This document shows positions 47,945-53,690 of a DNA stretch of 64,000 bases, piece after piece. Source of the stretch: Aneurinibacillus sp. (GTDB lineage: Bacteria > Bacillota > UBA5301 > DYFA01). Under the pieces are notes generated by a model. The model did no database searches and had not been told where the DNA came from. It saw only the letters and a program-made list of their open reading frames with translations. The DNA is taken from the NCBI GenBank assembly GCA_020725425.1, contig DYFA01000006.1:1-64000 (forward strand), written 5' to 3'. The translations under genes and the position numbers were made by a program. How positions within the stretch are numbered: the first letter of the stretch is position 1; every line of letters starts with the position of its first letter.

Positions 47945-48811
47945 TTATTCGGTCCGGGGCGTTCCTTTCCCTTCCCCGGCCACCTGGGCATGGGCCGCCG
48001 CCACCACCCGCTCGGCCTCGACCGCCAGGTTCGCCGGAAGGGGCACCGCCACCGGGCTCGTCCAGTCTTCCCCGGTCTTGAGGTGCATCAGGAACTCCAG
48101 GTTGCCCTCCGGGCCGGCGACCGGGGAAAAGGTGAAGCCGGCCCAGGTGGCGCCGGCCCCGGCCGCTGACTCGGCCAGCCGGACCAGCACCTCCCGGTGA
48201 ACCGCCGGATCCCGCACCACGCCCTTCTTGCCCACCTCGCCGCGGCCCGCTTCGAACTGCGGCTTGACGAGGATGACCAAGTCGGCGGGGTGGCGGAGGA
48301 GGGAGAGGAGATGAGGCAGGAAGAGGCGCACCGAGATGAAGGAGGTGTCGACGGTGGCCAGGTCCGGCGCCACCGGCAGGCGGGAGGGGTCCAGGTGGCG
48401 GATGTTGGTCCGCTCGAGGACCACCACTCGCCGGTCTTGGCGCAGCTTCCAGGCGAGCTGCCCGTAGCCTACGTCCACGGCGTAGACGAGCCGCGCCCCG
48501 TGGCGCAGGAGGACTTCGGTGAAGCCGCCGGTCGAGGCGCCCACGTCGATCGCCACCCGCCCTTCCACCGGGATCGAGAAGACCTCGAGCGCCCGGGCCA
48601 GCTTCAACCCGCCCCGGCTGACGTAGGGAACCGCCTCCCCCCGCACCTTGACGGGAACCTCCGGGTCCACCGGCGTTCCAGCCTTGTCCACCCGGCGCCC
48701 CGCCACCTCGACCAGGCCGGCCATGATCGCCGCCCGGGCCCGCTCCCGGCTGGCGAAGAGGCCCCGCTCGACGAGCAACTGGTCCAGCCGCTGCCGGCCG
48801 CCTCTCCTCAC
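47945..48811 (-). CDS. tlyA: TlyA-family rRNA methyltransferase
   Basis: TlyA proteins 2-prime-O-methylate cytidines in 16S and 23S rRNA. The 288-residue protein has an N-terminal S4 domain (about 5-65), then an FtsJ-like methyltransferase with AIDVGASTGGFTEVLL for SAM binding and LVILVKPQFEAGR carrying the catalytic lysine. Its start overlaps the dxs stop by four bases. This dxs-tlyA-nadK-argR-recN order is widely conserved. It has also been called a haemolysin, which is not supported. Confidence 0.94.
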   Translation of the reverse strand: MRRGGRQRLDQLLVERGLFASRERARAAIMAGLVEVAGRRVDKAGTPVDPEVPVKVRGEAVPYVSRGGLKLARALEVFSIPVEGRVAIDVGASTGGFTEVLLRHGARLVYAVDVGYGQLAWKLRQDRRVVVLERTNIRHLDPSRLPVAPDLATVDTSFISVRLFLPHLLSLLRHPADLVILVKPQFEAGRGEVGKKGVVRDPAVHREVLVRLAESAAGAGATWAGFTFSPVAGPEGNLEFLMHLKTGEDWTSPVAVPLPANLAVEAERVVAAAHAQVAGEGKGTPRTE

Positions 48812-50724
48812 TCCGGCCCACCTGCAAGCCAGGCGCCGACTCGCCGGGCCACCGCCGCCGGGGTCAAACCCACGGCTTCCAAAAGCACTGACCGGCTGCC
48901 GTGGGTCACGAACTCGTCCGGCAGGCCCAGAAGCAGGGTGCGCATCCCCGACCGCCCGTGGCGGCTGAGCGCCTCGAGGACAACCGCGCCGAACCCGCCC
49001 CGCGCGGTGTTCTCCTCCAGCGTCACTACGGCTCCGGCAGCGTCCGCCACTCCCAGCAGCAGTTCCTCATCGAGCGGGCGGCAGAAGCGGGCATTGACCA
49101 CCGTGGCCGGGATCCCCTCGCCCGCCAGAAGATCAGCCGCCTTCTCGGCCACCACGACCATCGTTCCAAGCGCCACGAGCGCCACCCGAGCCCCTTCGGC
49201 GCGCCGCCGCACTTCACCCCGCCCCCACGGGACGGTCGGTATCCCCGCGCCCTCGGGCAGGAGGGGGATGTCCCGCCCGTAGAGCGGCAACCCCTCCCCG
49301 CTGGCCCGCGGGTAGCGAATGGCCGCCGGGCCCGGGGCGGTGAAGGCGGCAGCCAGCATCTGCTGCAACTCCCGCTCGTCCCGGGGCGCCATCACCGCCA
49401 GGTTGGGGATGTGGGACAGGTAGGACAGGTCGAAGCTGCCGTGGTGCGTCGGGCCGTCCTCCCCGACGAGCCCGCCTCGGTCCACCGCCAGGACCACCGG
49501 CAGGTTCTGCAGCGCTATGTCGTGGACGATCTGGTCGTAACCGCGCTGGAGGAAGGTGGAGTACACCGCGAAGACCGGGCGCAGGCCAGCGGCGGCGAGC
49601 CCGGCCGCCAGAGTGGCGCCGTGCTGCTCGGCGATCCCAACGTCGAAGAAGCGCTCTGGAAAGGCCTGGGCGAACTCGGTCAATCCCGTCCCCTCCGGCA
49701 TGGCCGCCGTGATGGCGACGATCCGCGGGTCCCGCCGGGCGAGCTGGACCATCGTCTCGCCGAAAACCTGGGTGTAGGAGGGCCTGGTCGGCTGGCGGAG
49801 CAGCTCGCCGGACTCGACCACAAAAGGGGCCGTCCCGTGGAAGCGGGCGGCGTCAGTCTCGGCCGGCTCGTACCCCTTCCCCTTCCGGGTCAGCACGTGG
49901 ATCATCACCGGGTCGGCGTACTGGCTGGCCTCCCGGAAAGCCTCGACCAGCGCCTGGACGTCGTGGCCGTCGAAGGGGCCGAAGTAACTCCAGCCCAGTT
50001 CTTCGAAGAGCATGCCCGGCACGAGGAGGTACTTCAGGCTGTCCTTGAGCCTTTCCGCCAGACGGGCCATCCCGGGGCCGACGGCCGGGATCCGGTTCAG
50101 GAGATACTCGATGTCGTCCTTGGCCCGGGTGTAAGTGCGGTCCATGCGCAGGCGGGCCAGGTACCGCGACATCGCTCCGACGTTACGGGCGATGGACATC
50201 TCGTTGTCGTTGAGCACGCAGATGATGTGTTTCTTCAGGTGGCCGATCTGATTGAGCGCCTCGAAGGCCATGCCGGCCGTCATCGCCCCGTCCCCCACCA
50301 CCGCCACGACCTGGTTGTTTCTGCCTGCCAGGTCCCGGGCGATGGCCAGGCCCAGGGCCGCCGAGAGGGCCGTCGACGAGTGCCCGGTCTCGAAGAGGTC
50401 GTGCTGGCTCTCGGCCCTCTTGGGGAAACCGGCGAGCCCCCCGTACTGCCGGAGCGAGGAGAAGGCGGCGCGCCGTCCCGTCAGGAGCTTGTGCACGTAG
50501 CTTTGGTGGCCGACGTCCCAGATGATTTGATCCCTCGGGCTGTCGAAGGCCAGGTGCAAGGCGATAGTCAGCTCCACCACGCCCAGGTTCGAGGCGAGGT
50601 GGCCGCCGGTCCGGGCGACCGTCTGCACCAGAATCTCCCGGATTTCGTCCGCCAGCCGGTTCAGCTCTTCGGCAGTCAGCCGGCGCAGGTCCGCCGGCTG
50701 GTCAATGCGCTCCAGGATCGACAT
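48808..50724 (-). CDS. dxs: 1-deoxy-D-xylulose-5-phosphate synthase
   Basis: Dxs joins pyruvate and glyceraldehyde phosphate to start the methylerythritol pathway of isoprenoid synthesis. The 638-residue protein has DVGHQSYVHKLLTGR, the thiamine-diphosphate motif GDGAMTAGMAFEALN, and EDGPTHHGSFDLSY in the second domain. It follows the OapA gene by 15 bases and lies near ispA, so two prenyl-lipid genes flank the OLE RNA. Confidence 0.97.
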   Translation of the reverse strand: MSILERIDQPADLRRLTAEELNRLADEIREILVQTVARTGGHLASNLGVVELTIALHLAFDSPRDQIIWDVGHQSYVHKLLTGRRAAFSSLRQYGGLAGFPKRAESQHDLFETGHSSTALSAALGLAIARDLAGRNNQVVAVVGDGAMTAGMAFEALNQIGHLKKHIICVLNDNEMSIARNVGAMSRYLARLRMDRTYTRAKDDIEYLLNRIPAVGPGMARLAERLKDSLKYLLVPGMLFEELGWSYFGPFDGHDVQALVEAFREASQYADPVMIHVLTRKGKGYEPAETDAARFHGTAPFVVESGELLRQPTRPSYTQVFGETMVQLARRDPRIVAITAAMPEGTGLTEFAQAFPERFFDVGIAEQHGATLAAGLAAAGLRPVFAVYSTFLQRGYDQIVHDIALQNLPVVLAVDRGGLVGEDGPTHHGSFDLSYLSHIPNLAVMAPRDERELQQMLAAAFTAPGPAAIRYPRASGEGLPLYGRDIPLLPEGAGIPTVPWGRGEVRRRAEGARVALVALGTMVVVAEKAADLLAGEGIPATVVNARFCRPLDEELLLGVADAAGAVVTLEENTARGGFGAVVLEALSRHGRSGMRTLLLGLPDEFVTHGSRSVLLEAVGLTPAAVARRVGAWLAGGPE

Positions 50725-50739
50725 GCCCCAACCCCATTT

Positions 50740-51327
50740 CTAGCGGCGCCGCGCCCGCCTTCGGGCCGTCCGCCGGCTGCCGTCGGCGGCCGGAAGACGC
50801 AGCCCGGTGAGGTGACCGAAGCGGTGAAAGAACCGCCCCAGGAGAAAGATGACTTCGTTGGCCCGGCGGATGGCCATGGTCTTGGCCGCTGCCTTCCCGC
50901 CCACCGTGACCGCGGCGATCAGCGCCAGGAGGAAGGCGCTGACCAGGGTCTCCGGCGCCTCCCAGGCCGCGACCAGCCGCACCACGATGGCCGCTCCCAC
51001 CGCCCCGCTGATGGTGCCGAAAACATCGCCGAGCAGGTCGTTGGCCACGTTGGCTACCCGGTCGGCATGACGCACCAGGTAGATAGCCTCTCGCGCTCCG
51101 GGGACCCTGTTGGCCGCCATGGCGTGAAAGGGCGGCTCCCCGGCCGCCGTCGCCGCCGTCCCGATTATGTCTGCCCCGACGTTGAAGAGAATGATCGCCA
51201 CCAAAAGAGAAAAAGCCGGCAGCAGCCCGACTTTGGTGATGACCGCATGGGAGACGAACGCCACGCCGAGCGCGATGAGGAGGGTCCAGAACCCCATCCC
51301 GAGCAACTTGCGCAGCGAATCCGGCAA
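50740..51327 (-). CDS. oapA: OapA-like OLE-associated membrane protein
   Basis: The 195-residue protein has about four membrane segments (roughly 10-30, 33-55, 105-125 and 130-150), a hydrophilic loop with VRHADRVANVANDLLGDVFG, and a very basic C-terminal tail ending in eight arginines among the last eleven residues. Its size, topology and position directly downstream of the presumed OLE RNA match OapA, the membrane protein that binds OLE RNA in Bacillus halodurans. Relatives are often labelled magnesium/cobalt transporter CorB. The start is a TTG at 51327 with GGAGGG six bases upstream; the frame extends upstream into the RNA without a good start. Confidence 0.82.
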   Translation of the reverse strand: MPDSLRKLLGMGFWTLLIALGVAFVSHAVITKVGLLPAFSLLVAIILFNVGADIIGTAATAAGEPPFHAMAANRVPGAREAIYLVRHADRVANVANDLLGDVFGTISGAVGAAIVVRLVAAWEAPETLVSAFLLALIAAVTVGGKAAAKTMAIRRANEVIFLLGRFFHRFGHLTGLRLPAADGSRRTARRRARRR

Positions 51328-51369
51328 TGGTGTCCCTCCAGAAACAGCCTGACGCTGGGAACGGACAAT

Positions 51370-52000
51370 ATGAAGTGACGGGTGGCAGCCCAGCGAGTAA
51401 ACATTGCGGCTTGAGGTCCAGCTGGTTTTCCCATAAGGCGCACCGGTCGTTGCCGCACCGGCGGTTTCCCTTTGAGCGCCCCTCGGCGGCGTCGCCGCGC
51501 GCCGGGCTGGATTACCACTTAGTCCACACTCTAATCCCCGCAGGGCTTCCTTGATGGAACAGCCTAGGAGATTTCCTCGACGGCGCCGGCCATGCCCTAT
51601 CCTCTGTTGCAGCCCAACTTTCCCGCCGCACCGGCGGACGGCCTTACGCGTCGGCCGGCCGCCTGAACCCGGCGATCCCGACTGGGCCACTTCAAGGCAG
51701 GCTACGCTGCACCCAGCACAGAGCTTAAGTACGACAAGCGCCTGTTACTATGTACCGAAGTGCAGGTTCACGCCCAAGCCGTAGGTTTTCTGGTCACCCC
51801 ACGCACTTGGGTCTCCGCGGGAGGGGGTCAACGCCCGCATGCCATTGCGGATCGCCCCGCACCCTTAACCCCCAGCACCAACCACCGACTGGGCGTCGGC
51901 AGCCAGCACCAGGGACTTCATCGATGTGCCCTTGACGGATCTTTAGGCCCGTCTTCGGACACGGCGGCACCGACTAGAATACTGCGCCACCCATCAAGTG
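51370..52000 (-). ncRNA. ole: OLE RNA (ornate, large, extremophilic)
   Basis: A 748-base gap without a protein gene lies between divPAP2/ispA and oapA/dxs. The minus strand has its own TATAAT promoter. Ten bases near the predicted 5-prime end (51995-51986, GATGGGTGGC) pair completely, with one G-U, with ten bases near the 3-prime end (51386-51377, GCCACCCGTC). This closes a structure of about 619 nt. An internal hairpin (51537-51509, GGATTA/TAATCC arms) and several GC-rich stems are visible. OLE RNAs are about 600 nt, occur in anaerobic and extremophilic Firmicutes, usually lie beside ispA/dxs, and are followed by oapA. All these points agree. The identification rests on size, context and structure, not on an alignment. 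OLE forms membrane complexes with OapA and aids stress tolerance in Bacillus halodurans. Confidence 0.82.
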
Positions 52001-52006
52001 GTTAGT

Positions 52007-52035
52007 ATTATACCATGGTCCGGTCCGCTCTTCAA
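52007..52035 (-). promoter_or_regulatory. SigA-type promoter of the OLE RNA
   Basis: TTGAAG (52035-52030) and a perfect TATAAT (52012-52007) are separated by 17 bases on the minus strand. The predicted start at about 52000 lies five bases before the closing stem of the RNA. There is no obvious terminator between the RNA and oapA, so longer transcripts into oapA and dxs are likely. Confidence 0.85.
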
Positions 52036-52075
52036 GGCAGGCGAGCAGGACGGAGGGCCGGATCGGCCACCAAGG

Positions 52076-52528
52076 CTAGCGCGGTGTGAACAGCGCGGCG
52101 ATGACGACCCCCAGCGCCGCTCCGGCCAGGACTTCCACCGGGCTGTGTCCGAGGAGCTCCTTCAGCCGGTCCTCTCGGACGCGCCCGCCGTGGTAGAGGT
52201 CGTCTACGATCTGGTTGAGAATCTCCGCCTGCTTTCCGGCGGCCTGGCGGACACCGGCGGCGTCGTACATGACGATCATGGCGAAAACCCAAGCCAGGGC
52301 GGTCACCGGGCTGGCCCAGCCGGTCCGCTGGCCGATGGCCGTGGCCAGGGAGGTGACGAAGGCCGAGTGGGAGCTGGGCATGCCGCCCGCCCCTACGAAA
52401 CGCCGGAAGTTGAGGCGCTTCTCCTTGACCAGGGTATGGACCACCTTCAGCGACTGGGCAATGAACCAGGCCAGGAAGGAGACTTCCAGGACCGGATTGC
52501 TCAACAGTTGCGCCAACGCTCCGCCCAA
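52076..52528 (-). CDS. Divergent PAP2-family membrane protein
   Basis: The 150-residue protein (DUF212/divergent PAP2) has three to four hydrophobic segments, and the phosphatase-like motifs GMPSSHSAFVTSLATAIG and GHSPVEVLAGAALG. PAP2 enzymes remove phosphate from lipid phosphates. Next to ispA and dxs, a prenyl-phosphate substrate is an attractive guess, but it is unproven. The start is a TTG at 52528, 14 bases after ispA. The OLE promoter lies just downstream. Confidence 0.85.
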   Translation of the reverse strand: MGGALAQLLSNPVLEVSFLAWFIAQSLKVVHTLVKEKRLNFRRFVGAGGMPSSHSAFVTSLATAIGQRTGWASPVTALAWVFAMIVMYDAAGVRQAAGKQAEILNQIVDDLYHGGRVREDRLKELLGHSPVEVLAGAALGVVIAALFTPR

Positions 52529-52542
52529 GTCGCTCGCCCTTC

Positions 52543-53433
52543 CTATCGGTCCCGCTGCAGGATGAAGTCGGCCAGCGCGGCCAGCACTTCCCCGCGCTCC
52601 CCGAAGCCCGCCACGGCCTGCTTGGCCTCCTCGGCGGCCTCCCGAGCCCGCCGGCGGGCCTCCTCGATCCCCAAGAGCCCCGGGTAGGTGGCCTTCGCCC
52701 GGGCGGCGTCCTTCCTCACCGTCTTTCCGGTCTTTTCGGCCTCGCCTTCGACGTCCAGCAGATCGTCGGTGATTTGGAAGGCCAGCCCCACCGCCTCGCC
52801 GTAGCGGGTCAGGGCGGCGAGCTCCCTGGGCGTCGCCCCGCCCAGGAGGGCTCCGATCCGGACCGAGGCGCGGATGAGGGCGCCGGTCTTCCGCCGGTGA
52901 ATGGATTCGAGCTCGGGAACGGCCAACTGTCGCCCTTCTCCCAGGAGATCGTCGGCCTGGCCGCCCGCCATGCCCCGCGATCCCGAGGCCACGGCCAGCT
53001 CGACAGTGGCCGCCAGCGCCTGCTCCGCTGACGCGCCCGCCGCCCGCGCCCCGTTCGCCATCACCTCAAAGGCCAGGGTGAGGAGGGCGTCCCCGGCGAG
53101 CAGGGCGATCGCCTCCCCATACACCCGGTGAGCGGAGGGGCGGCCGCGCCGCCAGTCGTCATCGTCCATGCAGGGCAGGTCGTCGTGGATGAGGGAGTAG
53201 GCGTGGACCAGTTCGACTGCGCAGGCTGCCGGCAGGACCGGCTCGGCTGGCGCGCCGACCGCCTCGGCCGCCGCCACCACGAGATACCCGCGCAGCCGCT
53301 TGCCACCGCCGAGGGTTGAATAGCGCATCGCCTCGTGCAGGAGGGACGGAGGAGCCTCGGCTGGCGGCAGAACCGCCGCCAACTCTGTCTCGACCCGCCG
53401 GGCGCAGTCCGCCCACCGTTCGGCAAGAATCAT
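52543..53433 (-). CDS. ispA: Farnesyl/geranyl diphosphate synthase
   Basis: IspA condenses isopentenyl diphosphate with allylic diphosphates to farnesyl diphosphate. The 296-residue helical protein has the two aspartate-rich motifs DDLPCMDDDD (residues near 82-91) and DDLLDVEGEAEKTGKT. GGGKRLR for diphosphate binding is near residue 43. The ATG at 53433 overlaps the xseB stop by four bases. Order xseA-xseB-ispA is conserved across Firmicutes. Confidence 0.95.
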   Translation of the reverse strand: MILAERWADCARRVETELAAVLPPAEAPPSLLHEAMRYSTLGGGKRLRGYLVVAAAEAVGAPAEPVLPAACAVELVHAYSLIHDDLPCMDDDDWRRGRPSAHRVYGEAIALLAGDALLTLAFEVMANGARAAGASAEQALAATVELAVASGSRGMAGGQADDLLGEGRQLAVPELESIHRRKTGALIRASVRIGALLGGATPRELAALTRYGEAVGLAFQITDDLLDVEGEAEKTGKTVRKDAARAKATYPGLLGIEEARRRAREAAEEAKQAVAGFGERGEVLAALADFILQRDR

Positions 53434-53690
53434 GGCTGCTGCTCGCCGCGGGCAGTGAAGGGCGCCTCGACCACGCGGCCGTCCGCTTCCCGCAGGAGCT
53501 GCTGCACCCGCCCTTCTGCCTCGTCCAGGCGGGCCTTGCATACCCGGGACAAGCCGATGCCCTCTTCGAACAGCGCCAGTGCCCGGTCGAGGGGTAGGTC
53601 AGCCTGTTCCAGTTCCGCCACCACGTCCTTCAGCCGGTTGAAGGCCTGCTCAAAACTGAGCGCCGGCTCTCCGCTCTTCTTCTCCCCCAT
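53430..53690 (-). CDS. xseB: Exonuclease VII small subunit
   Basis: XseB partners XseA in degrading single-stranded DNA. The 86-residue all-helical protein has the family signature FEQAFNRLKDVVAELEQADL followed by LDRALALFEEGI. The ATG at 53690 lies nine bases after AAGGAGG and gives the usual size. The gene overlaps the end of xseA by 41 bases and the start of ispA by four. Confidence 0.94.
   Translation of the reverse strand: MGEKKSGEPALSFEQAFNRLKDVVAELEQADLPLDRALALFEEGIGLSRVCKARLDEAEGRVQQLLREADGRVVEAPFTARGEQQP

Follow-up and report, generated by a model that had tools for sequence, protein, structure and literature searches.

In Halalkalibacterium halodurans, OLE RNA is part of a membrane-associated ribonucleoprotein that acts in stress and Mg2+ adaptation (PMC12054373, PMC12265935). 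Published models of the RNA already include a terminal helix, P1, and a 12-bp helix, P3/P3.1, which was proposed to span the membrane, and ArgR was named as a partner candidate (PMC12265935). Cryo-EM of OLE from species other than the one studied here revealed a dimer in which palindromic P9.3 loops kiss, a contact defined as bridge B3; the loops carry GGCC, for which GAUC or AGCU is substituted in nature (PMC12286853). In addition, the partner protein OapA was reported to resemble the transporter MpfA, OLE and MpfA were found to anticorrelate across hosts, and P7-P9 are missing or shortened in OLE variants 1 (TANB77) and 2 (RF39) (PMC11332333).

The window, i.e. the whole stretch of 64,000 nt that was analysed, contains on its minus strand a gap of 748 bases without a protein gene (51328-52075), located between a DUF212 gene and oapA. 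An earlier note had recognized this gap and assigned it to OLE RNA, and both claims were borne out. In our Rfam scan, the OLE family (RF01071) matched at 52006-51366 (minus strand) with 463 bits (E 1.9e-133) over model positions 1-616 of 616, which exceeds the gathering score of 50 by 413 bits. This was the only Rfam match in the window that reached its gathering score; a weak match to snoZ206 (E 0.88) was dismissed as chance. The region given earlier was right, while its limits were slightly off. The features of the locus, all encoded on the minus strand, are as follows.

48808..50724, minus strand: dxs (deoxyxylulose-5-phosphate synthase; TIGR00204, 803 bits)
50740..51327, minus strand: oapA, 195 aa, TTG start, Shine-Dalgarno sequence GGAGG, putative CNNM-like transmembrane fold, Arg-rich C terminus
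51366..52006, minus strand: OLE RNA (RF01071), full length, covariance-model match
51377..51386, minus strand: 3' strand of the terminal helix P1, GCCACCCGTC, covarying pairs
51582..51594, minus strand: 3' strand of the P3/P3.1 helix, CATGGCCGGCGCC, 12-bp pairing
51644..51652, minus strand: P9.3 apical loop GACGCGTAA with the palindrome ACGCGT, putative homodimer kissing loop (bridge B3)
51960..51971, minus strand: 5' strand of the P3/P3.1 helix, GGTGCCGCCGTG, 12-bp pairing
51986..51995, minus strand: 5' strand of the terminal helix P1, GATGGGTGGC, covarying pairs
52007..52035, minus strand: predicted ole promoter, extended -10 sigma70-type, TTGAAG-17-TATAAT with TGG before the -10 element, 10/12 matches
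52076..52528, minus strand: DUF212 divergent PAP2-family membrane protein, between ispA and ole (PF02681, 174 bits)
52543..53541, minus strand: ispA (farnesyl diphosphate synthase; NF045485, 357 bits), whose true start is probably internal to this frame

Based on the full-length Rfam match, the covariation of P1, the adjacent oapA, the fitting operon, the presence of the genes for OapB, OapC and bS21 in the same genome and the wide occurrence of the family in this phylum, we conclude that the RNA is a canonical full-length OLE RNA and a new member of an already known family. Family membership, together with the covariation of P1 and P3 and the presence of the partner genes, is what the analysis shows directly. 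Since OLE was found in 284 of 399 genomes sampled from the phylum, the locus is ordinary. A second OLE copy was not found in the same genome. For genomes of the sample with more than one OLE match, introns and duplications were considered; the majority of the partial matches, though not every one, are situated close to or directly at the end of a contig and resemble breaks in the assembly. One very divergent, AT-rich OLE (169.9 bits) was observed in genome G020 (L101:3343-3999), where it is followed by the usual oapA-dxs-tlyA order and its P4-P7 portion fits the Rfam model poorly.

The RNA resembles the OLE RNAs of H. halodurans and Clostridium acetobutylicum in its length, in all modelled helices, in P1 and P3, in the loop sequences of P5.1 and P6.1, which equal the consensus, and in its surroundings, with oapA downstream and isoprenoid, xse, nusB, argR and recN genes nearby. 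It differs from them in its GC content of 63%, in a P8 tip that is about 30 nt longer, in the P4 loop (CUAAAGAU here, CUAAAAAU there) and in the P9.3 kissing loop (ACGCGU here, GGCC there). Unlike variants 1 and 2, which belong to the same family, it keeps all of P7-P9 and therefore represents the full-length OLE type.

Because the structure line of the Rfam OLE model leaves the ends unpaired, so that P1 is not modelled, this helix was tested separately. The complementarity of ten bases at both ends, which the earlier note had described, indeed comprises ten pairs between 51995-51986 and 51386-51377, including one G-U, and it covaries in relatives. Among 31 distinct OLE genes, 93% of the P1 pairs were standard with the genes' own partners versus 74% when the 3' partners were swapped between species (structure-free alignment; maximum of 80% in 2,000 shuffles; kinship among the sequences uncorrected), and four to five pair types occurred at 6/10 positions. 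The P3/P3.1 helix has 12 bp with a 1-nt bulge and a pairing energy of -20 kcal/mol in the present RNA. Over 112 OLEs, the mean P3 pairing energy was -17.2 kcal/mol with the own partners and -7.5 kcal/mol with swapped ones, again uncorrected for kinship.

The predicted promoter TTGAAG-N17-TATAAT was found at 52035-52007 (minus strand), as described before, with TG ahead of the -10 element, and it is the only promoter-like site within 2 kb (shuffled sequences average 0.2). A TG-extended -10 element is located close upstream of P1 in 81/142 OLE loci, which suggests that in this phylum ole probably often has a promoter of its own, also in cases where it is part of an operon as well. Only the TG-extended form was used for this comparison, since the count of plain TATAAT upstream of OLE was not discriminating (87/142 in the reverse-strand control). 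The neighbours named earlier are also in place, with dxs downstream and ispA upstream, two genes away and separated by the DUF212/divergent-PAP2 gene. The class relatives G003 and G005 keep the gene order accC-Asp23-amaP-nusB-xseA-xseB-ispA-DUF212-ole-oapA-dxs-tlyA-nadK-argR-recN.

The membrane protein with a basic tail that was noted directly downstream of the RNA is OapA, with 195 aa and an Arg-rich tail. It is 46-49% identical to the OLE-adjacent OapA proteins of class relatives and has the invariant motifs HAMAAN and DxxGD in common with 19 homologues. The four best PDB fold matches of the AlphaFold model (mean pLDDT 82) were all chains of the archaeal CNNM protein MtCorB (probability 0.91-1.0, E 0.12-0.8), which is suggestive of a CNNM-like fold. 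The Pfam CNNM family matches 14/20 OapA homologues at E 0.01 or better, in agreement with the published similarity between OapA and MpfA (PMC11332333). The transmembrane fold thus appears similar to that of the CNNM/CorC/MpfA Mg2+ transporters, from which OapA differs in its Arg-rich tail and in lacking CBS domains. We rejected OapA as a true CNNM/MpfA transporter and call it CNNM-like only, because it scores 17 bits against a Pfam CNNM cut-off of 28.4 and no CBS domain was matched within its 195 aa. A further PDB match, to herpesvirus glycoprotein L (E 5e-4), was discarded as a composition artefact, in which an unrelated protein is matched along a stretch rich in Ala and Arg.

The same genome also encodes the other known partners. 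OapB was not found by PF00467 (KOW) and was located instead by reading the interval between map and infA; the top PDB match for it was OLE-associated protein B (7k9b, E 5e-10). The gene for OapC, a member of the L7Ae family, sits just upstream of rpsL, and bS21 is encoded as well. No full CNNM/MpfA transporter was detected in this genome (G000), a draft of 72 contigs with 97% completeness, so that its absence is not certain. Judged from the genome sequence, the presence of OapB, OapC and bS21 together with the absence of a full CNNM/MpfA matches what has been published for OLE hosts. Among the seven genomes of the class, two lack OLE, of which G001 has two full CNNM proteins and G004 (86% complete) has none; the contrast between G000 and G001 agrees with the published anticorrelation (PMC11332333). 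The OLE-bearing G005 was observed to have one full CNNM transporter. With none in G004 and one in G005, the anticorrelation with MpfA is only loose in this class.

The tip loop of P9.3 is GACGCGUAA and contains the self-complementary ACGCGU where GGCC is usual. GGCC was counted in about 110 of 143 scored OLEs, the arm was lost or shortened in 11, and at least ten of the 21 OLEs that keep the arm without GGCC hold another palindrome (GCGC, CGCG, AGCU, GUAC or GAUC); these counts are approximate, as each tip was read from the fold of one sequence, L052 and L006 at the least are mis-assigned among the 21, related genomes were counted separately, and the tip of the present RNA, which has GGCC in its stem, was for this reason tallied with the GGCC tips. 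In one genus (L043, L142, L153) the tip is the non-palindromic UUCGCCGAA on an intact arm, which makes these OLEs a natural departure from the kissing-loop rule. A few further GGCC-less OLEs beyond this genus also lack a palindrome in P9.3. In the present loop alone, a 6-nt palindrome arises in 5% of shuffles, so that the single case is suggestive and not proof. A value of 'P = 0.0' obtained for loop palindromes was discounted, since the loops had been chosen after inspection, 3/6 loops were unable to score and the genomes are not independent. Taken as sequence patterns, the palindromes at P9.3 are suggestive of the kissing-loop dimer seen by cryo-EM, with CGCG, GCGC and GUAC extending the reported GGCC, GAUC and AGCU. 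We favour, with some reservation, the view that the P9.3 tip serves OLE RNAs in general as a self-kissing contact of the dimer, and that selection there acts on self-complementarity and not on the sequence GGCC as such.

The departures from consensus could also mean that the locus is a degenerate OLE remnant which no longer works. Most relatives score higher (up to 583 bits) than the 463 bits reached here, the conserved A of the P4 loop is a G and GGCC is lost from P9.3. However, part of the lower score may stem from the high GC content, the P4 variant CCTAAAGATCC also occurs in four other OLEs, and a palindrome is retained at P9.3. Moreover, every model position is covered, P1 and P3 are intact, and so are oapA and all known partner genes, which makes a remnant very improbable. 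Still less probable, and strongly disfavoured, is that no separate RNA is made and the region either extends the coding part of oapA or forms a long leader in its mRNA. The longest minus-strand frame in the gap, open up to 51690 (316 aa), is only the oapA frame continuing without a stop codon ahead of the TTG start. Relatives, however, align to OapA only from about this TTG, with start codons (in close relatives a TTG or GTG near this position) and Shine-Dalgarno sites of their own, consistent with the earlier reading of the gap as non-coding, and the covariation of the RNA and its match to the family over the full length go far beyond what chance would produce.

Almost certainly, the best explanation for the locus as a whole is a canonical OLE RNA with its own promoter, read-through, a membrane-tethered dimer with partners and a role in stress. 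Both the dimer seen by cryo-EM and every phenotype were described in other species, and the OLE described here is known from its sequence; by homology we infer its expression, read-through, dimerization, membrane location and stress role. The extended -10 promoter of ole would drive transcription of the RNA and, by read-through, of oapA, dxs, tlyA, nadK, argR and recN. The RNA would fold into the known architecture, with the terminal helix P1 and the long P3 intact, and by homology pair with a second copy via the P4, P5.1/P6.1 and P9.3 loops. OapA, as a CNNM-like four-helix protein, would tether the dimer, to which OapB, OapC and bS21 would be bound, at the membrane, and the particle may, by homology with H. 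halodurans, adapt the cells to cold, alcohol, Mg2+ and poor carbon sources.

OLE RNA ranks with the largest structured RNAs of bacteria, and its dimer and membrane insertion have been modelled from a few species. To these, the high-GC host contributes a diverged yet complete set of partners (OapA, OapB, OapC and bS21), and the swapped P9.3 palindrome, in an otherwise ordinary copy, provides an independent, naturally occurring variant of the kissing-loop contact at P9. If the P9.3 tip is selected for self-complementarity, ACGCGU here and GCGC or GUAC elsewhere would be natural compensatory swaps, and the OLE dimer would be working in living cells throughout the phylum.
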